Source: Bradyrhizobium zhengyangense (GTDB taxonomy: Bacteria > Pseudomonadota > Alphaproteobacteria > Rhizobiales > Xanthobacteraceae). Taken from it: a DNA stretch of 64,000 nt. Location: assembly GCF_022012435.1 (NCBI RefSeq), contig NZ_JAKLUA010000003.1, positions 372,001-436,000 of the forward strand, in the 5' to 3' direction. A model generated the notes under the pieces. It had not been told where the DNA came from. It was given only the letters and a program-made list of their open reading frames with translations, and searched no databases. This document shows, in pieces, positions 14,696-23,936 of the stretch. Both the position numbers and the translations under genes were made by a program. Within the stretch, counting starts at the first letter, position 1, and each line of letters starts with the position of its first letter.

Positions 14696-16384
14696 ATGTC
14701 GCATCACCGGACGATTCAGACCCTAGCTCTCGCCGTGGTCATCACCGCGGCCGGTGCCGGCGCAGCAAAGGCCGAGCGCGCCGGTTGCGAGTACAAGGAC
14801 ATCGACGTTGCACGTTATGGCGAAAAGCCATTCCACAATCCGCCCGAGATCACTTCCGCGAACGGTGTGCTGAAGGCCGGGCTCGACGTCGAGTACACCG
14901 ACCCGACCAAGGTCAGCATCGGTGGATGCGGCGTTACGCTGCGGACTTATGGCGGGCAACTCGCGGGGCCGACGCTGCGTGCCAAGCCGGGCGACGTACT
15001 CAACATCCTGTTGTCGAACAAGCTCCCGGTGGAAACGCCCGACCAGGTCAATCAGCAATTCGAGCAGGAGCGGTCGAACGCGCATCTGAGCGTGGTGCCC
15101 GCCTCGTTCAACACCACGAACCTGCACACCCATGGCCTGCATGTCTCGCCGGTCGGCAACAGCGACAACGTTTTGCTCGCGCTGTTGCCGCAGACGCAGT
15201 TCCCGTACGAGATCCGGGTGCCCGCGAACCATCCGCCCGGCTCGTTCTGGTATCACGCCCACACCCATGGCTCGACGTCGATCCAGGTCGGCAGCGGCAT
15301 GGCCGGCGCGCTCATCCTGGATGACGATCGGGCGAAAATTCCGCTCGCGTTGCGCGAAGCCAACAAGGGCGAGAAGGTCATGCTGTTCCAGACCATCCTC
15401 TACAACACCAATGGCGAGCTGAACCAGATCTCCGCGCTGTTTCCCGATCCCCCCGCGCCCTGTCCGACGCCCAACCCCGGCACATGGACCTGCAGCAAGC
15501 GGCAGATCACCATCAACGGCCAGATTCGTCCTGTCATCACGATGCGGCCCGGCGAGGTGCAGCGCTGGCGCATGATCGACACCGGCTTCCGCGCCTCGCT
15601 CGCGATCCGGCTGGAAGGTCATCCGTTGCATGAGATCGCGCTCGATGGTCTCTATCTCGGCCGCGTCGATACCTGGCCCGCGGGGCAGACGATCGAGCTC
15701 CAGCCCGGCTACCGCAGCGACGTTCTGGTGCAGGCCAGCAAGACACCAGGCCGCTACCAGCTGATCAACGGGGCGCTGACCGCCGCGCAGTCGTTGCGCG
15801 CCGTGGCCCAGCCCGAGGAGGTGTTGGCGATCGTCGACGTGCAGGGCGATCCCGTCGATATGGCGCTGCCGACCAGCGCCGAGATGGCCCCGCTCGCGCC
15901 GTTCCCGAACCTCGACCTGAAGGCGAAGGCGGTCGGCGTGCAGCAGGTCGTGTTCAAGCTCGGCCAGGATGTCCCTGGTAGTCGCAACTACTTCCAGATC
16001 AATTACGAGGCCTTCGATCCCAACCACAGCCGCAAGGTGGTGCTGAACACCGTCGACCAATGGTCGCTCTCGACCGTCGGCGATCCCGCCGCGAACAACG
16101 GCATTCCGGCGTTGCCCCACGTCTTCCACATCCACGTCAATCCGTTCCAGTTCGAACGGCAGGGACCGTCGGGCCCGGAGACGGTGTGGAAGGATACCGT
16201 GCTGATCCCGCCAGGGAAGCAGATCAACGTCTACACCCAGTACACCGACTATATCGGCGCGTTCGTCCTGCACTGTCACATCCTGGATCACGAAGATCTC
16301 GGCATGATGGAGGTCGTCGAAGTCGTCAGCCCGGAAGGCACCTCGCCGCTGCGGGCGATGGCCGGCGGCGGACATCACCACTGA
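14696..16384 (+). CDS. multicopper oxidase (laccase-like), exported
   Basis: Three-domain multicopper oxidase of 562 residues. A signal peptide is present (residues 1-26, ending AAKA). All four copper motifs are intact: HTHG (144-147), HAHTHG (187-192), HVFHIH (475-480) and HCHILDHEDLGM (526-537), where C527 would join the trinuclear centre to type 1 copper and M537 is the axial ligand. Such enzymes oxidise phenols, bilirubin or metal ions with reduction of oxygen to water. The C-terminus ends GGGHHH. ATG at 14696 follows GGGAGTGAGCC. It is monocistronic and converges on the operon ending at 16478, which carries two more oxidases, so a shared phenol or amine chemistry is possible. The 276 bases upstream show no gene. 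Confidence 0.92.
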   Translation: MSHHRTIQTLALAVVITAAGAGAAKAERAGCEYKDIDVARYGEKPFHNPPEITSANGVLKAGLDVEYTDPTKVSIGGCGVTLRTYGGQLAGPTLRAKPGDVLNILLSNKLPVETPDQVNQQFEQERSNAHLSVVPASFNTTNLHTHGLHVSPVGNSDNVLLALLPQTQFPYEIRVPANHPPGSFWYHAHTHGSTSIQVGSGMAGALILDDDRAKIPLALREANKGEKVMLFQTILYNTNGELNQISALFPDPPAPCPTPNPGTWTCSKRQITINGQIRPVITMRPGEVQRWRMIDTGFRASLAIRLEGHPLHEIALDGLYLGRVDTWPAGQTIELQPGYRSDVLVQASKTPGRYQLINGALTAAQSLRAVAQPEEVLAIVDVQGDPVDMALPTSAEMAPLAPFPNLDLKAKAVGVQQVVFKLGQDVPGSRNYFQINYEAFDPNHSRKVVLNTVDQWSLSTVGDPAANNGIPALPHVFHIHVNPFQFERQGPSGPETVWKDTVLIPPGKQINVYTQYTDYIGAFVLHCHILDHEDLGMMEVVEVVSPEGTSPLRAMAGGGHHH

Positions 16385-16477
16385 CGCGACTTGACTGCCG
16401 CATACGGGCGCGGACTACGTTCGCGCCCGTTTGCGTGGAGGCGATTCATCAGGTGCGAGGCGCCGTCGCGCCCGGAC

Positions 16478-17173
16478 TTACGTGGACGCCTGCTGCGGAT
16501 AGAAGATCGGCGTCTGCGGATCGCGGTGCCAGTCATATTCCGCGGCCATGGCGGCATTCTCGGCGACGGCGCGGCCGGCGAGCCGCGAGACCAGATAGAA
16601 GCCCATGTCGGTGCCGGCCGACACGCCGGCGCTGGTGACATATTTTCCGGCGTCGACCCAGCGTGACACGCTGTCCCACAGCACCTTGGGACCAAACTGC
16701 GCCACCCAGCTGAAGGCGAAATGGTTGGTTGCGGCCGGCTTTCCATCGAGCAGCCCGGCGCGCGCCAACACCGCGGCGCCGGTGCAGACCGACGTCATGA
16801 TGGGGACGCGGGCATCCATCTGATGGACCCATGCCAGCAACGCCTTGACCTCTTTCGGATGCTTCTTTTCGTCCAGCAGCGGCCGCGTTCCTTCGCCGCC
16901 CGGGATCATCAGGAGATCGAGCCGCTCCTCGAGCGCGCGCGCGAAATCCCAGTCGGGCGCGACCGAAGGTCCGTTGCTGCTTTTGACGTTCTTGCCGTCG
17001 CGGCTGATCAGCTTGATCTCGAAGGGATAGGCGGGCGGCGCCTCATAGGATGTGCCGAGGAAGCGCGAAATCGAGAACGCCTCGACGAATCCCCAGACGT
17101 CGATCGGCTCGAATCCATTGAACACGACGATCCCGATCCGCTGGGTGCGGGGGAAGACCTTGTTGCCTGCCAT
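16478..17173 (-). CDS. DJ-1/PfpI-family protein
   Basis: Class I glutamine-amidotransferase-fold protein of 231 residues of the DJ-1/PfpI group. The nucleophile elbow reads TSVCTGAAVLARAG with C130, and the partner acidic residue is in GFEPIDVWG near residue 22. Layout resembles isonitrile hydratases and the N-terminal part of GlxA-type regulators, but there is no AraC DNA-binding domain. ATG at 17173 follows GGAGAACC and begins one base after the flavoprotein stop, so it is the last gene of the oxidase operon. A role in dealing with reactive carbonyl or quinone products made by the operon enzymes would fit, but is inference. Confidence 0.85.
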   Translation of the reverse strand: MAGNKVFPRTQRIGIVVFNGFEPIDVWGFVEAFSISRFLGTSYEAPPAYPFEIKLISRDGKNVKSSNGPSVAPDWDFARALEERLDLLMIPGGEGTRPLLDEKKHPKEVKALLAWVHQMDARVPIMTSVCTGAAVLARAGLLDGKPAATNHFAFSWVAQFGPKVLWDSVSRWVDAGKYVTSAGVSAGTDMGFYLVSRLAGRAVAENAAMAAEYDWHRDPQTPIFYPQQAST

Positions 17174-17174
17174 C

Positions 17175-18314
17175 CTAAGGTTCTCCTGCAAAATGCACGG
17201 CCGGTTCGCGATCGAACGGCTCGGCCGCATGACGGCGCTGCCAGAACGCGGATCCGCTCCAGCGCCGCTCCATGCGATAGACGGTGCGCCTGTCGCGCCG
17301 GTAATGGCGGTACTCGGCTTCGATCAGCCTGCGATATTTCGCGCCGCCGCCATCGACGCCTCTGATCGCATCAAGCAGGACGAATGCGCCGAGCTTGCCG
17401 GTGCGCAGCGCCTTCATGATGCCGGCCGACGACAATGGATCCCAGCTCGAGGCCGCATCTCCCACCGCGACCCAGTTGCGTCCGCTCACGTGATCGAGGC
17501 AATGCGAGCGCGCCGGCCAGGTGAAGATGCGCTCTGCGCTATTGGCCGTGGCTGCGCGCGCCGCCGTCAGCGGCGCCGCGCGCAATTGCGCGAGCCAGGG
17601 TCCGAGCCGTGCGCTGGAATGATGGTGGACGATGTCGCTGTCGCTCATCCAGGCCAGCACCATCAGGCCATCAGGGAGTGCAGTCGAATACCACCATCCG
17701 TTCTCGCAGGCCTCGACCAGCGTAGCGTGATCGCGGATCGCACCATCGCGAAGGCGCACCAATGCGGCAACGCCCACCAGGCGATCGGCAAAACGTCTGC
17801 GGCTGCCCTGGCTCGTCGCGAACCGCGCCGATCGTCCGGTGGCATCAGCGACGAAGCGCGCGCCGATCTCGACGCGCCGTCCCTGGCAGTCGAGGGAAAG
17901 CTGCCATCCCGCAGCTTCCGCGACGGCGGACAGGAAGCGCGCGCCGCGCCAGACCTCGATGCCGGCAGCCTCGGCAGCGGCGCGTAAGGCTTCGTCGAAG
18001 CTGGTACGGTCGAGGTGCCAGGCACTGCCGCGCGTCGAAAACATGAAGTCATGGGCATGAGGGCGGTCGCTTCCCCAGGCGGCCTGGGAGCGGACGCCCT
18101 CGATCGCTCCATCGCGCAGGATGTGGTCCCGGCAGCCCAGTCCGTTCAGGAGTTGCACAGCGCCCGGCGCGAGCGTTTCCCCGATCCGCCAGTCCGTCGC
18201 GATGGCGGCCTCGGCGATCAGGATTTTCAGGTCAGGCGCGTGACGCTTCAGCTCCAGCGCCAGGGCCGTTCCGGCAGGGCCTCCGCCGAGGATCACCACA
18301 TCGTGATGCGACAT
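17175..18314 (-). CDS. LodB/GoxB-like FAD-dependent protein (quinoprotein maturase)
   Basis: FAD-binding protein of 379 residues of the flavin halogenase-like / LodB group. The dinucleotide motif VVILGGGPAGTALALEL starts the protein, WRIGETLAPG follows at about residue 42, and the second FAD motif reads WVAVGDAASSWDPLSSAG. The WxWxIP motif of tryptophan halogenases is not seen. In Marinomonas, LodB and GoxB are flavoproteins required to build the cysteine tryptophylquinone cofactor of their partner oxidase. Here the gene starts 12 bases after the LodA-like gene, exactly the expected pairing, which is the main reason for the call. GAGG lies ten bases before ATG 18314. No signal peptide, in line with cofactor synthesis in the cytoplasm. 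Confidence 0.85.
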   Translation of the reverse strand: MSHHDVVILGGGPAGTALALELKRHAPDLKILIAEAAIATDWRIGETLAPGAVQLLNGLGCRDHILRDGAIEGVRSQAAWGSDRPHAHDFMFSTRGSAWHLDRTSFDEALRAAAEAAGIEVWRGARFLSAVAEAAGWQLSLDCQGRRVEIGARFVADATGRSARFATSQGSRRRFADRLVGVAALVRLRDGAIRDHATLVEACENGWWYSTALPDGLMVLAWMSDSDIVHHHSSARLGPWLAQLRAAPLTAARAATANSAERIFTWPARSHCLDHVSGRNWVAVGDAASSWDPLSSAGIMKALRTGKLGAFVLLDAIRGVDGGGAKYRRLIEAEYRHYRRDRRTVYRMERRWSGSAFWQRRHAAEPFDREPAVHFAGEP

Positions 18315-18326
18315 ATCAGCGTCGCC

Positions 18327-20342
18327 TCACGATTTGGGTTGGTCCGGCGGCGTGGGCGCGAACGTGTATTGCCCGTCGCTCTGGATGATGAAGCGCAACG
18401 ACGCCCATGCCGTGGTCATGGCGAGATCGCCGGCGTTGTTCTGCGCCGTCGGCGACCATGGCGCACCGTTGAAAATGAAGGGGCGGTGGACCGGCCACCA
18501 ATAGGTCAGCTGAAAGGCCTGCGCGGCAGGGTCGCCGACGCTGTCGAGCTCGAGATTGTTCCAGTCGCGATAGGTGACGTCGACCGGCTGGTTGGTGCAT
18601 TCGTTGAAATCGGACTGCCACGGCAGCGCGCTGTATTTGGTGATGTCGCCCGGCTCGAGCCCGTTGCTGAGCTCTGCTCCGCCCGGCAAGGAAAGCTCGC
18701 CTTGCGACGGCGCTGCCGGCTTGATGCGGTAGGCCGCGGAATAGATCGCGGGATTGCGCATGATCCAGCCCGCCTCGGCGCCCGGACAGAACGCTCCGCC
18801 GAGGGCTGAGGCCAGCGCGCCGCGGTCCAGCGCAGCGCCAGGTCCCGGATGCATCAGGCCGGGTTTGATGTCTTCGGCGTCCTCGTTGATGAAGAGCCCG
18901 TCGGCCCATTGCTTGAGCAGGAACAGCATGGTCTCGGTCAGGCGCAGGAATTTCGACGGCGCCGTGTTCGAGAGCGCATTGTCGCCGCACAGCAGCGGCA
19001 TCGCGAACAGCTTGCCGCCCGGGATGCCTGGGCCTGCCGGTGCGAACAGTTCGTTTTCCTGTCCGGGCTTGCGCAACACCGCATACAGCAGCTGGCGCAT
19101 CTGATGGCGGCGGCGGCGATCCGCCTCGGGCTCGTCAGGATAGGGCGGCACCGACAGATCGGTGAAATCGAAATTGCCGCCGGGGGCCGTGTTGTGCGGG
19201 TTGCCGCCGGTCAATGCATCGGCGTCCATGAAATTCTGCGCATCGAGCGGGCGCAGCAGGATCGGCAGGATGTCGCGACCGAAATACGGGCGGAAGTCGG
19301 CGTTCCATTGCGCCTGTGCGCGCCAGATGCGCAGGCCCGCCTCGTCCTTCGGAACCACGGCCGATCCCGTGTAAGGCGGGATACCGTAGAGGTAGGGCAC
19401 GTAACCGAAATGCCGCACGGCGATGTCGAACAGCAGGTCATCCATAGTGACGACGTCGACGGCCTGCGGCACGTAGCGCGGATAACCGACGATGACCCAG
19501 GCCGGATCAATCGCGGCCGGCGCGAGAACCGGCTTGCCCAGCGGTTTGACAGGGCGTTTGTCGATGGCGACCACGGTGCCGATGAAGCGCGCGTTGACCG
19601 GGCCATCGGAGATGTCGTCGAACCAGCCGTCGTTGTTGGCGTATTCCTCGATCTTGGGATTGCCGAAACCGTCCAGCATTGTCCCCGAATTGCCGAAGCC
19701 GCCCAGCACCAGAAGCCGGTTCTTGTTCGCCATCTGGGTGCATCTGAGCTCGCCCAAGGCCGCGATCGAGTTCGGCACCAGGTCGGGCGGAAAGCTGGTC
19801 GGCCCGGGACTGTTCTTGTCGAAGATCGCCTGCTGCGACCCCATGAAGCTCACGGTGCGCGGGCCGGGATCGATGATGAGGCGCTGGCGCTCCTCGCTGT
19901 TGGTGATGTCGGCGTTGCGCAGCGGATGGTCGGACGCATAGCCGTGCTCGCCATCGGTCTCCGCGAACGCGTACCAGCTCGCCTTCTTGTTGGCGAGATA
20001 GGCCGTCCACTGGATGTCGTCGATCCGCAAGGTCAGCAGCTGGCCGTTCCGGCGATTGACGATGTCGACCTGGTCGCCGATGGCGGCCTCGCGGCCATCA
20101 GGTGATTTGTCGTCGTAGATGAAGACGCGAAAGCGCGCCGCCTGGCGCAGGATCCTGCCCTTGTCGTCATTGAAATATTTGACGCTCTCCTCTTCGCCCT
20201 TCTTGTTCAGGATCGGATTGCCCTGATCGTCGCATTTGATCGGCAAATGTCCGCCCTTGTCGGGGGAGATGCAGAACTTGTCCGGCGAGTTGCCGAGCCG
20301 CGCAATGCCGATCGCGGGATGAATGCGAAAGCTTGTTGCCAT
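18327..20342 (-). CDS. LodA/GoxA-like cysteine-tryptophylquinone amine/amino-acid oxidase
   Basis: Protein of 671 residues that begins with the LodA-family signature FRIHPAIGIARLGNS. Known members are L-lysine 6-oxidase (LodA) and glycine oxidase (GoxA), which oxidatively deaminate amino acids and release ammonia and hydrogen peroxide using a cofactor made from one Cys and one Trp. My candidates for the cross-linked pair are C519 in GGAFCPG and W575 in ALPWQSDF; C452 in LLCGDN is another conserved-looking Cys. No classical signal peptide. It starts seven bases after the tyrosinase stop and ends 12 bases before the maturase, so the three are one transcript. AGG lies ahead of ATG 20342 but is weak, suggesting coupling to the upstream gene. 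The substrate cannot be told from sequence. Confidence 0.9.
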   Translation of the reverse strand: MATSFRIHPAIGIARLGNSPDKFCISPDKGGHLPIKCDDQGNPILNKKGEEESVKYFNDDKGRILRQAARFRVFIYDDKSPDGREAAIGDQVDIVNRRNGQLLTLRIDDIQWTAYLANKKASWYAFAETDGEHGYASDHPLRNADITNSEERQRLIIDPGPRTVSFMGSQQAIFDKNSPGPTSFPPDLVPNSIAALGELRCTQMANKNRLLVLGGFGNSGTMLDGFGNPKIEEYANNDGWFDDISDGPVNARFIGTVVAIDKRPVKPLGKPVLAPAAIDPAWVIVGYPRYVPQAVDVVTMDDLLFDIAVRHFGYVPYLYGIPPYTGSAVVPKDEAGLRIWRAQAQWNADFRPYFGRDILPILLRPLDAQNFMDADALTGGNPHNTAPGGNFDFTDLSVPPYPDEPEADRRRRHQMRQLLYAVLRKPGQENELFAPAGPGIPGGKLFAMPLLCGDNALSNTAPSKFLRLTETMLFLLKQWADGLFINEDAEDIKPGLMHPGPGAALDRGALASALGGAFCPGAEAGWIMRNPAIYSAAYRIKPAAPSQGELSLPGGAELSNGLEPGDITKYSALPWQSDFNECTNQPVDVTYRDWNNLELDSVGDPAAQAFQLTYWWPVHRPFIFNGAPWSPTAQNNAGDLAMTTAWASLRFIIQSDGQYTFAPTPPDQPKS

Positions 20343-20349
20343 GACGGGC

Positions 20350-22365
20350 CTATTGTCTCGATCTCGAGAACCGATCGAAGAAGTTGAGTGAAACGGCGTC
20401 GATCTTCAGGGCATCGGTCGCCGGCGTGCCGTCGGTGTTGAGGACGACGAGGTTGACGCTGAACGAGGTCGCGCCATTGGCCTTGAGCCGCTTCACCGCG
20501 TCGGTGGCGTCGATGCGGAAATTGCCGGGGGTCTTGTGCGGTCGCGGCCGCAAATCGAAGCGCGCGGTGCGCGGTTCCGGAACGTCGCAATGGCCGGGGC
20601 CGCCGACGCAGACGCCGGTGAACATGCTGACCATCCCGACATAGTTGGGATTGCCGCGCGTCGGCGTCTCGACGGTCGCGCCCGGCGTGTTGAGGAAGGC
20701 GCGGATGTGAAAACCGGGACGCGTGACGTATTGCACCGCGTGCAGGCGGATCTCCGCGTGACTATGGTCGGCGACGACCTTGGGATGGACAGGCGCCGCG
20801 GCGGACTGGAAGCGCTGCAGCGGCACCGCGCTGTTGGTCACGAACATGTTCGCGGCCATCATGTATTCGTAGCCGAGCCGCGAAATGCTGGCGGTGTCGG
20901 CGACGGTGAAGTTCCACGGCGGCAGCACGTCGCCGGGATCGTCGGGTCCGCCGCTGGGATTGCGACGCTGCCATTCCGCCCACAGCCGGTCGCAATTGCT
21001 GTGATGCCCCCAGAAGATCGGATCGAACGCGGTGGTGCCGGGATCCTGCATGTCGCCGTATGGCTGTTCGCTAGGCACGATGCTCGAAAACGGGTTCTTG
21101 CCGCCCGAGAAATTGTGAATCAGGTTGTGGATGGTCTCCAGCGCGCCGAAGAACTGGTTGCCGCGGCTGCCGCTGGCGAAATCAAAGAAGCTTTCGATCT
21201 CAAGGATGCGCTCGACGTCGTCGGGCGTCGGATAGGCCTCGAAGATCAGGTCGGCGTTGCCGCCGGGCCAACGCTTCCAGTCGAACAGCGGATTGATGTC
21301 GCCGAGAACCGACTTGATCGCCTCGTCGCTCTCGGGCGCCGCGCCGTAGCTGATCTTCGCAGCGGCGAACAAGCGCGCGCCGGAATTGAAGTCCTTGCCG
21401 ATGATGCCGCGCAAGGCCGCCAGCGCCTCCGCCGAGACCTTGCCGCCGTCGGTCAGCTTGCGCAATCCGTCCTCGTCGATCCAGCAGCGATAGGCGGCGG
21501 GGACGATGCCGTTGTCGTTTGCGACCTTGCCCATGTCCTCGAGCGAGGCCTTGACGTTGGCGCTGTCGGCCGCCCAGTCCCAATAGGGCAGGGTCACGGT
21601 CGGATCGATGTCCTGAAGCTGCTTTTCGAAGCCGTAGAGATAGGCGCGATGCCAGGTCAGGAACTGCTCCCAGCCGTGCTGGCACTGGTTGGCGTGGATG
21701 CGGGCCCAATAGGCAAAGCTTCGCTCGTCCTGCGGATAGGCATCGAGCGACTTCATCTGGGCGATCGCGGCCCGCAGGCGCCGCAGCTCCTCGTCGGAGA
21801 GATAGGCCACGTTCTTGCGCGCGCGCACGCCACCGGAATCGTGCGCGAGCTGGTTGGTGGGGCCCGTGAACAGGGCGTGCGGCGCGTCTCCCGTCACCAG
21901 CGCGCGCGTGACGGCCGAGGCCTGTGCCGCGCCGGCATGAAGTTTGTCTTCGTCAGATCCGGGACAGCCGTCGGTGATCCAGTGCGCAATGAACGCAATA
22001 TCTGCTTCGCTGACGCGCTTGCCGCCCCAGGGAAGCGGCGGAAATTGCGTGCCGTCGAACGGATACTGGCCGCGCAGGCCCTTGATCAGCCCGGCGTTGT
22101 CGCCATTGCCGGGCGAGGCTGCGGCTGCATGCTCGTCGCAGCTTCCATGACAGCAGGATGATGGCTTGGCAGCCGGCGGCGAGCCCTCTCCGCCGCGCAT
22201 CATGGGGATGCCATAGAGCTCGAAGGCTCTCAGTTCCGGCAGCGGCAGAGTCCAGAAGCGCGGATGCGACATGTAGCTTGCCGTCGAGGCGCCGGCAGCC
22301 GCGTCCATGATGGCCCGAAACCGGTCGTAGCGCGAGGGCGGCGTGGCTTCGCTCAAATCCGGCAT
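20350..22365 (-). CDS. long tyrosinase with extra N-terminal region
   Basis: Tyrosinase / polyphenol oxidase of 671 residues. CuA ligands are H224, H230 and H239 (HANQCQH, then FLTWHRAYLYGFE); CuB ligands are H413, H417 and the HH at 454-455 (ETIHNLIHN, then DPIFWGHHSNCDRLW). C228 sits two residues before H230, the spacing of the Cys-His thioether bridge of fungal tyrosinases. About 190 residues precede the copper domain and include CCHGSC (71-76) and a segment (WGGKRVSEADIAFIAHWI) reminiscent of cytochrome c tails but with no CxxCH; about 200 residues follow it. No signal peptide. GGAGAACA precedes ATG 22365. It would hydroxylate phenols and oxidise catechols to quinones. It heads the LodA/LodB-like genes with only seven bases between. 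Confidence 0.9.
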   Translation of the reverse strand: MPDLSEATPPSRYDRFRAIMDAAAGASTASYMSHPRFWTLPLPELRAFELYGIPMMRGGEGSPPAAKPSSCCHGSCDEHAAAASPGNGDNAGLIKGLRGQYPFDGTQFPPLPWGGKRVSEADIAFIAHWITDGCPGSDEDKLHAGAAQASAVTRALVTGDAPHALFTGPTNQLAHDSGGVRARKNVAYLSDEELRRLRAAIAQMKSLDAYPQDERSFAYWARIHANQCQHGWEQFLTWHRAYLYGFEKQLQDIDPTVTLPYWDWAADSANVKASLEDMGKVANDNGIVPAAYRCWIDEDGLRKLTDGGKVSAEALAALRGIIGKDFNSGARLFAAAKISYGAAPESDEAIKSVLGDINPLFDWKRWPGGNADLIFEAYPTPDDVERILEIESFFDFASGSRGNQFFGALETIHNLIHNFSGGKNPFSSIVPSEQPYGDMQDPGTTAFDPIFWGHHSNCDRLWAEWQRRNPSGGPDDPGDVLPPWNFTVADTASISRLGYEYMMAANMFVTNSAVPLQRFQSAAAPVHPKVVADHSHAEIRLHAVQYVTRPGFHIRAFLNTPGATVETPTRGNPNYVGMVSMFTGVCVGGPGHCDVPEPRTARFDLRPRPHKTPGNFRIDATDAVKRLKANGATSFSVNLVVLNTDGTPATDALKIDAVSLNFFDRFSRSRQ

Positions 22366-22498
22366 GCCTTGTTCTCCTGGCGAGATGCCACGGTCGCTTG
22401 GCTGTCACGCGCGACACGCATTGCGATCTCGATTGCACGCATTCATCGCATTCAGCTCCGGTCGGTGTGAACCGGCCGGTCGTTGCAGTGCAGTCGGC

Positions 22499-22819
22499 TC
22501 ACGCCACCTTCTTGAAGGTGCCGTGAAATTGATCGAAGGTGAGATCAGGCGGACTCGTGATGTTGGTCACGATCGTGTGTCTCGCGTAATCCTCGATGTG
22601 CACGACCGTCGTCTTGTCGGACTCCTGCCATGTCACCAGGAAGATATGCTCGGTGATCGGCTCGACCTTGATCGTCACCGTTTCGGAGCCGACGATTTTT
22701 CCGTTGGCATCAACGTTGTAATAGGTGAGCGAGGTGTCGGAGGTGAATTCCAGCTCGACACGGAAGGCGACGAAATCCACCAGGTATCTGTGACCGACGG
22801 CCGGGAAAGCGCGCGACAT
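22499..22819 (-). CDS. small MoaF-like (lipocalin-like) protein
   Basis: Small protein of 106 residues, mostly beta-strand in appearance. The pattern GHRYLVDFVAF, then FLVTWQESDKTTVVHIEDY and a C-terminal FDQFHGTFKKVA resembles the MoaF-related domain, a lipocalin-like fold found as small stand-alone proteins. These have no settled function; binding of a small ligand is plausible. ATG at 22819 has a strong AGGAGG six bases ahead, better than any other ribosome site in the cluster. It is upstream of the tyrosinase on the same strand with a 133-base gap, so it may be the first gene of that operon or have its own transcript. No signal peptide. Confidence 0.65.
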   Translation of the reverse strand: MSRAFPAVGHRYLVDFVAFRVELEFTSDTSLTYYNVDANGKIVGSETVTIKVEPITEHIFLVTWQESDKTTVVHIEDYARHTIVTNITSPPDLTFDQFHGTFKKVA

Positions 22820-23050
22820 GGGCACCTCCTGTTGTCGAAACAATTAAATGAACTGCGGCTGACGAGAGTAAACCCTTCGTCATTGCTTCCTCAAATCTGC
22901 AATTTAAGGTAGCGCTGTTTCAGCGTGCCGTCAATGAACACCTGGCGTCTTGCCGAGGATCGAAACTGCGACGGTTTGTTGCTCCAACAATCTTCACAGA
23001 TCTGTTGCGATCGTCACGACGGCCATCGCCGCGGGCCGTCACACTGGACG

Positions 23051-23644
23051 CTAGCTGAGATCGTGCAGATCCTTGCCGAGTGGCGGCTTCAGGGAAAATC
23101 CGCTGAACCTGACCGGCAATCCCTCTCGCTCCGGTGTGCAAGCCATTGGTCCGACGAGGTAGGATCGCGCCGCGGTGAACGGAGCCAGTCGGACGAGGGG
23201 CCAGGTCTTGCCGTCAGCTGACGCCTGCAATCGCAGAACGCCGTCGGCGATGGTGACACGCATCCAGAAATCGCCGGCATCGTGCTCATAGGGGGCGGTT
23301 GCCCAATCCGACTGCCCAATGGTCAAGACGCTCGAGAGCATCGCGCGCCCGTCCGAAAACTCGATTCCGGCTTTGACCCAGTGCTCCGCATCGATACGCA
23401 CCATGATGCCGGCTTGATCGTAGAGTTCCCGAAAATTGCTCTGGATTCGCAGCTCGGCGGTAAACGCCTCCGCGGTCGCAAATCCCAGAAAATGGCCGCT
23501 GTCGCGGCAAAACCCATAATGCGTTTTCTGCCAGAAATCGGTGGCCTTGTCGGTGACGAGCTCGAGACTGTCGCCCTGCGCGGTCCACCGTTCCGGTTCA
23601 TTCAGCCAGACACCATCATGTCTTGCGAAGATGGCAGCGTTCAT
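23051..23644 (-). CDS. DUF1349-family protein
   Basis: Protein of 197 residues with the DUF1349 pattern: LELVTDKATDFWQKTHYG, YDQAGIMVRIDAEHWVKAGIE, SSVLT, DFWMRVTIADGVLRLQASADG and VGPMACTPEREGLPVRFSGF. DUF1349 is a concanavalin-like beta-sandwich, related to carbohydrate-binding folds; its cellular role is not established. ATG at 23644 has GAGG seven bases ahead; the extension to 23743 lacks support. It lies on the same strand as, and 231 bases upstream of, the MoaF-like gene; the gap shows no gene. The 292 bases on its other side up to 23936 hold promoters but no visible gene. Confidence 0.8.
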   Translation of the reverse strand: MNAAIFARHDGVWLNEPERWTAQGDSLELVTDKATDFWQKTHYGFCRDSGHFLGFATAEAFTAELRIQSNFRELYDQAGIMVRIDAEHWVKAGIEFSDGRAMLSSVLTIGQSDWATAPYEHDAGDFWMRVTIADGVLRLQASADGKTWPLVRLAPFTAARSYLVGPMACTPEREGLPVRFSGFSLKPPLGKDLHDLS

Positions 23645-23936
23645 GTCGAACCTCGACGAAAATTGCCGACACCGCCTGATGTCGAGCTGGTGCGGCAAGA
23701 CAGCCGCAAGACGAACGGAGAGCGCGAATGCGCGATCACGCACCCCGGCTCTCCAGGACGCACTTTAGTGACGCATTTCAGTGTGGCCAAATCAGAGCAG
23801 CCCGTTCTTCTTCGGGATATCGGGTGATCGCTGGACGCTCCGGTTGCTTCCAGCGGGTAAGCAAGTATCGTTCAGCCCTGTGTTGTCTGTAGTCATTGCA
23901 CCCACAGTTCGATTAGAGATTAGCTGGTGAAACGGG

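Follow-up and report, generated by a model that had tools for sequence, protein, structure and literature searches.

An operon of Bradyrhizobium zhengyangense joins a type-3 copper tyrosinase (TYR) to a quinoprotein oxidase of the LodA/GoxA family, and this pairing is nearly strict within a single LodA clade. The operon is situated in a 64,000-nucleotide stretch of contig NZ_JAKLUA010000003.1 (positions 372,001-436,000; GCF_022012435.1), henceforth the window. The near-strict pairing, the single clade and the tight co-variation of the two proteins over at least five phyla make it probable that the enzymes come together, or else that their products do. To the proposal that both oxidases act as a pair, with LodA yielding aldehyde and peroxide and TYR yielding quinones, we give an even chance. 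The window operon is best classed with the known lodA operons of group ID, of which it is a compact form from a second Bradyrhizobium lineage. In group ID, reported from Bradyrhizobium and others, a lodA-like gene shares its operon with lodB and with genes for a tyrosinase and a multicopper oxidase (MCO) (Campillo-Brocal et al., 2015; PMC4417212). Usually a gene for 138-142 amino acids, below called the small gene, stands between lodA and lodB, as in the Fig. 1B legend for Bradyrhizobium japonicum USDA6 (PMC4417212). The preliminary description of the window, made from the letters alone, had stated that no such system was described; this was wrong. The evidence for the pairing is more than a search of the literature (open-licence PMC) turned up. 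The genes concerned are:

20350-22365, minus strand: tyrosinase (TYR), type-3 copper, 671 amino acids; PF00264 at 129.5 bits over residues 215-468; N-terminal extension of about 140 amino acids
21952-22341, minus strand: TYR N-terminal domain, possibly haem-less and cytochrome-c-like; flexible Cys-Cys loop C71-C72, plus C134
18327-20342, minus strand: LodA/GoxA-family quinoprotein oxidase, 671 amino acids; LodA_N 176.1 bits, LodA_C 133.0 bits (Pfam)
17175-18314, minus strand: LodB/GoxB-like flavoprotein of the cysteine tryptophylquinone (CTQ) maturase family; FAD_binding_3 and Trp_halogenase (Pfam)
16478-17173, minus strand: DJ-1/PfpI family protein, 231 amino acids; PF01965 at 55.8 bits (scored on a longer open reading frame, ORF)
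14696-16384, plus strand: multicopper oxidase (MCO), 562 amino acids; three Cu-oxidase domains (Pfam); convergent, outside the operon
22499-22819, minus strand: MoaF-like protein, an optional neighbour; PF22036 (MoaF_like) at 101.6 bits (scored on a longer ORF)
23051-23743, minus strand: DUF1349 protein, 217.9 bits; same strand as MoaF and upstream of it

ORF calls and Pfam matches, which exceeded the curated cut-offs for the families of all six genes from MCO to MoaF, confirmed the gene identities, the strands and the converging MCO of the preliminary description. Its gaps were likewise reproduced: computed from the ORF coordinates, those between MoaF, TYR, LodA, LodB and DJ-1 are 133, 7, 12 and 1 bases.

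Conservation of the pairing was examined in the best 80 of 432 LodA relatives, which were chosen by LodA similarity in a LodA-alignment search of genome contigs. Weaker group ID members are outside this set, and many loci are contigs of metagenome-assembled genomes (MAGs). TYR was located just 5' of LodA in 75 of the 80 loci; four others were cut by contig ends and one was a chimera. When at least 2.5 kb of upstream sequence was available, a same-strand TYR was directly 5' of LodA in 66/69 loci. With less than 2.5 kb TYR was seen in 7/11 loci and the other four were cut off. The misses L130 and L143 were over-long LodA ORFs with TYR in fact adjoining. The miss L149:9590-11476, on a Verrucomicrobiota MAG contig, is an ORF which begins as a TYR N-terminal domain and continues as LodA without a start of its own, which may reflect a deletion or faulty assembly. 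L128 has a DJ-1 gene separating TYR from LodA. Over all loci with a gap the median TYR-LodA distance was 17 bases (range -130 to 838), and the adjoining TYR ORF carried the N-terminal domain in 65 of 66 loci. The remaining genes were kept to different extents. Among the 68 loci offering 2.5 kb or more downstream, 67 had LodB and 58 had the small gene somewhere in the locus. Among the 46 with 7 kb on both sides, MCO was found in 22 and DJ-1 in 14. The loci originated from Pseudomonadota, Acidobacteriota, Bacteroidota, Vulcanimicrobiota and Nitrospirota, the chimera from Verrucomicrobiota.

The same picture emerged within the genus. Sixteen of 242 genomes contained the TYR N-terminal domain at more than 185 bits, and the same 16 had a LodA match at E <1e-97; all LodAs of those 16 were inside the TYR-linked clade. 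The genome of the window (G000) itself has a single tyrosinase match and a single LodA_C match. Seventeen loci of the genus whose LodAs are of other kinds served as controls, and none showed a TYR of the window type. A domain search in 289 genomes of the class returned, besides the own genome, two strong matches, of which one belonged to a complete operon and the other sat at the end of a contig. The order TYR-LodA-LodB-DJ1 of the preliminary description was retained in 4/4 of the closest genus relatives; therefore the gene set is not a matter of chance. MoaF and MCO adjoined the operon in one of these four. A search of viral contigs for LodA gave nothing confirmed. As a separate observation, two of the 17 control loci (L171:2626-4194 and L176:2-3752) carry a different tyrosinase, at a distance of 3.4 kb to LodA and 1.8 kb to LodB, the latter two being a pair of another clade; in L176 the tyrosinase directly follows an MCO gene. 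This is a possible second association of a tyrosinase with LodA.

The TYR-linked LodAs form one clade. In a quick tree of 114 rows, i.e. 98 TYR-linked clade members and 16 control LodAs of the genus, the 98 were grouped with an approximate likelihood ratio (SH-aLRT) support of 99; four of the 98 were cut off upstream and one was the chimera. For a careful tree, 38 clade rows (out of 98) were combined with 13 controls (out of 16) and five LodAs from plasmids of Pseudoalteromonas, Azospirillum, Xanthomonas and Paraburkholderia. This tree separated the 38 chosen rows from the 18 others with a support of 100/99.8. On the simplest reading of these trees tyrosinase would have joined LodA once and stayed. 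Next, pairwise protein distances were correlated with those of LodA. The coefficients were 0.966 for TYR (n = 70), 0.904 for DJ-1 (n = 20), 0.903 for the small protein (n = 65), 0.832 for LodB (n = 74) and 0.465 for MCO (n = 32). The highest values in 500 permutations were 0.475 for DJ-1, 0.286 for MCO and 0.093 for TYR. Because of these correlations TYR is, as far as protein distances tell, the most faithful partner of LodA, above even the LodB maturase, and MCO the least faithful; TYR and LodA thus appear as the core to which MCO is optional.

The trees also bear on the origin of the window operon. The window LodA is 74-95% identical to those of four Bradyrhizobium relatives and about 50% identical to the other, classical Bradyrhizobium lineage. 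In both trees the window and these four relatives nest among Acidobacteriota, WPS-2/Eremiobacterota and Methylocapsa, apart from Bradyrhizobium with the classical operon. The latter group has 19 Bradyrhizobium rows, several of which are one genome entered twice. Because the window group branches away from these rows, the data suggest that the genus acquired two versions of the operon. The clade as a whole contains the window and the 19 Bradyrhizobium rows with the published tyrosinase/small-gene layout; the published group ID accessions themselves are not part of the tree. Neither the five members of the window group nor G056 have the small gene between lodA and lodB. It is present in Methylocapsa (L082), whose branch lies between the window group and G056; this branching is only partly supported (98/68). 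A whole-genome search for the small gene gave no match in G000, G064, G403 and G056, and three positive-control genomes matched. In G341 and G391 a distant homologue is located elsewhere, far from the operon (L214:7955-8413; L215:8358-8801), and is followed by a gene which by eye looks like a GMC-type oxidoreductase. Because of this different location and neighbour these homologues are probably paralogues. MoaF as a substitute for the small gene was not supported: MoaF was not found next to the operon in three of the four closest relatives, and there, too, no small gene separates lodA from lodB.

Compared to the published group ID operons, the window shares the tyrosinase, LodA and LodB genes and the Cys and Trp of LodA-like proteins, in a system known from Bradyrhizobium and several other taxa. 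It differs in that a gap of 12 bases replaces the 138-142 amino acid gene between lodA and lodB, that the MCO is convergent and has 562 residues instead of about 700-730 in most classical loci, that a DJ-1 gene is last in the operon, and that its LodA is nearer to those of Acidobacteriota, WPS-2 and Methylocapsa. Lack of the small gene is not without precedent; Saccharophagus degradans was placed in group ID without it (PMC4417212). The authors of group ID gave 11 organisms, proposed a functional relation and drew a comparison with Marinomonas mediterranea (PMC4417212). LodA and LodB of Marinomonas mediterranea have the CTQ residues and the lodA-lodB order in common with the window, yet its tyrosinase and MCO genes are outside the lod operon, unlike the window TYR (PMC4417212). 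The excerpts of a second review of LodA-like proteins (PMC4699246) mention neither tyrosinase nor group ID.

Are both enzymes likely to be functional? The LodA-like protein scored 319.8 bits with the NCBIfam model of LodA lysine 6-oxidase, below the equivalog cut-off of 600 bits. The LodB-like protein scored 260.7 bits with the LodB maturase model (cut-off 400), 209.2 with GoxB and 167.1 with QhpG, all below the equivalog cut-offs. By these scores both are family members and not the named lysine oxidase and maturase equivalogs. C582 and W616 of the LodA-like protein align with C516 and W581 of the solved LodA structure (3weu), the residues which form CTQ (PMC4417212). In the 114-row alignment C582 and W616 have equivalents in 97 of 98 TYR-linked clade rows, the remaining row being gapped, and the same applies to D578. 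The quinone cofactor assumed in the preliminary description is thus borne out at the level of the residues, and CTQ formation itself is predicted. C519, which aligns with LodA C448, is kept in 93/98 clade rows, and Y234, which aligns with LodA Y211, is Tyr in 72 and Phe in 24 rows with two gaps. In the 16 control LodAs the position of C519 is taken by His (13) or Ser (3) and that of Y234 mostly by Phe (11). We take the positions of LodA C448 and Y211 to be active-site positions that differ between LodA and GoxA. The pattern at C519 and Y234 would suit an active site of the amine type, as opposed to the glycine type.

The copper ligands of TYR are conserved. H224, H230, H239, H413, H417, H455 and C228, which belongs to a C-x-H thioether motif, are present in 60/60 aligned rows including the window. 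All 60 rows have Asn at HisB1+1 (N414 in the window); at HisB2+1 there are 32 rows with Asn, the window among them (N418), and 28 with Ile. Asn or Asp at HisB1+1/HisB2+1 favours monophenolase activity, not exclusively (PMC8049008). An AlphaFold model of TYR had a mean predicted local distance difference test (pLDDT) score of 85.5 and its Foldseek matches were polyphenol oxidases and tyrosinases. The thioether was described as rare among bacterial tyrosinases (PMC10526336). The tyrosinase of Verrucomicrobium spinosum (vsTyr; PDB 8bbq; PMC10526336) has the same C-x-H thioether and Asn at both HisB1+1 and HisB2+1. It is regulated by a C-terminal extension (PMC10526336); the window TYR instead possesses an N-terminal domain without a significant match in the PDB.

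This domain is found in the first approximately 140 residues of TYR, for which no Pfam match was obtained. It is conserved, with a motif like PFDG-x-x-FP-x-LPWGG...WI-x-x-GCP. In the domain alignment a loop with CC is present in 52/54 rows, two or more CC in 14 rows, and the haem motif CXXCH in 0/54. AlphaFold predicted four helices with good confidence (pLDDT 82) and a disordered loop around the CC segment (pLDDT <50). In a genome search the domain profile matched the ORF of a c-type cytochrome with CMMCH at E 1.3e-5. It also matched standalone proteins of about 110-140 amino acids in Bradyrhizobium, one of which had a weak Cytochrome_CBB3 match (E 0.008, under the curated cut-off). With the domain alone no significant similarity was detected in the PDB: the top Foldseek hit was cytochrome c-551 (E 8.2), the top sequence-profile hit cytochrome c552 (E 0.61), and VIA-align reported none at Z >=2. 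Possibly the domain is a haem-less cytochrome-c-like fold; this stays tentative because it relies on profile matches and the PDB searches gave nothing significant. Fusion of the small 138-142 amino acid gene into the TYR N-terminus was considered as an origin and rejected, as TYRs of operons which keep the small gene have the same domain. Small standalone ORFs related to the domain and devoid of CXXCH occur in L175:3463-3792, L178:13279-13632, L199-L204 and L206-L212, that of L200 being part of a longer ORF. Those of the control loci L175 and L178 are within 5 kb of LodA. In L175 the gene next to it is ferritin-like by eye, and LodB and LodA lie within about 5 kb. L178:1012-2400, beside a ferritin-like-looking gene, is an ORF of 462 amino acids, the start of which resembles by eye the LodA N-terminus; perhaps it is a second, shorter LodA-like protein. 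L205 (G299:C1:5120854-5121086) contains a group ID TYR N-terminus in two short pieces, which lie in different frames and one of which has a stop; the LodA matches of G299 are weak and outside the TYR-linked clade.

How might the two oxidases cooperate? LodB would convert Cys582 and Trp616 of the LodA-like protein to CTQ; LodA and GoxA both depend on a flavoprotein of the LodB type for their CTQ (PMC7876137). With oxygen, the LodA-like enzyme would then oxidise a primary amine or amino acid to an aldehyde or keto acid, ammonia and hydrogen peroxide. TYR as its fixed partner would oxidise a phenol or catechol to an ortho-quinone, with either a substrate or a compartment shared between the two enzymes. 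The peroxide from LodA could convert the resting (met) TYR to the reactive oxy form and in this way couple both enzymes; peroxide can generate the oxy state of type-3 copper enzymes (PMC8049008). The N-terminal domain with its Cys-Cys loop might mediate LodA docking or copper loading, which is a guess. MCO, DJ-1 and MoaF would be optional helpers. If TYR uses LodA peroxide or helps to make the cofactor, this would be a type-3 copper/quinone enzyme coupling not found in the literature (open-licence PMC). The compact operon of the window type (tyr-lodA-lodB-DJ1, no small gene) is a convenient expression construct. Of the single pathway suggested in the preliminary description, a shared function of TYR and LodA remains likely. 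Its stress on the laccase is weakly founded: the MCO converges on the operon, none was found next to the operon in three of the four closest relatives, and MCO distances follow those of LodA poorly (0.465).

Several points weigh against a joint action of TYR and LodA. Conserved adjacency is linked inheritance and is not a proof of a shared substrate. Distance correlations rise with protein length, a possible advantage for TYR against LodB, and the small protein and DJ-1 (the latter with n = 20) correlate well with LodA, too. A scan for promoters and terminators yielded counts no higher than in shuffled sequence. By eye TYR and the LodA-like protein are devoid of a signal peptide and the MCO, with its hydrophobic, signal-like N-terminus, has one; therefore, MCO may act elsewhere. 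No paper on the function of group ID or on the activity of a member was found by text searches (open-licence PMC), and cultures of Saccharophagus degradans, a group ID organism, were stated to have no lysine oxidase activity, given as unpublished (PMC4417212). Because of the latter finding lysine is not favoured as a substrate of the LodA-like enzyme.

Alternatively, TYR may be a maturation factor of LodA which hydroxylates the CTQ-precursor Trp, oxidises the hydroxylated Trp or hands over copper, with LodB finishing the cofactor. The first Trp hydroxylation is reported to be autocatalytic in LodA and GoxA and, in LodA, apparently copper-dependent (PMC7876137), and that a tyrosinase can modify a protein side chain is known from Tyr98 of the caddie protein (PMC6312201). 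TYR tracks LodA closer than LodB does and adjoins it in nearly all loci examined, and the Cys-Cys loop of the N-terminal domain would be in line with such a role. However, LodA and GoxA mature with LodB or GoxB and no tyrosinase, and the 17 control loci have no window-type TYR, yet their aligned LodAs keep the Cys in 16/16 and the Trp in 15/16 rows (one gap). We consider a maturation factor unlikely. The narrower version, in which TYR performs the first hydroxylation of the CTQ-precursor Trp or supplies copper for it while docked via the haem-less cytochrome-c-like domain, is quite improbable. If true, a protein-derived quinone cofactor would be reached by a new route, and a multi-phylum tyrosinase family would have a protein substrate.

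The enzymes could also be merely co-regulated in an oxidative or a melanin/antimicrobial response and use unrelated substrates, as in Marinomonas mediterranea, where LodA, tyrosinase and MCO are co-regulated and not linked (PMC4417212). The coming and going of MCO and DJ-1 among the wide loci is compatible with this. From co-regulation alone one would expect neither near-strict adjacency, nor a single clade, nor a TYR-LodA correlation of 0.966 across several phyla; we regard it as doubtful, if worth keeping in mind. Lastly, TYR might be no phenol oxidase in vivo, and instead be a regulatory or an oxygen- or copper-handling partner whose functional N-terminal domain docks on LodA. This draws on the relationship of the domain to the small standalone proteins, two of which lie near other LodA genes (L175, L178). 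All six copper ligands and the Asn at HisB1+1 in every row argue for a working active site, and such a role appears very unlikely. Joint action of TYR and LodA is the reading we prefer.

Some details of the locus are added. Purine-rich stretches upstream agree with starts of MoaF at 22819, TYR at 22365 and DJ-1 at 17173. The MoaF-like start is an ATG at 22819 after AGGAGG; the longest ORF begins at a TTG at 22843. A longer DJ-1/PfpI ORF extends to 17230 and overlaps LodB. In the closest relative, G064, a second tyrosinase-like ORF (L059:15861-17540; about 50 bits to the window TYR) is located a few kb from the operon, and a DUF1349 gene is also upstream.

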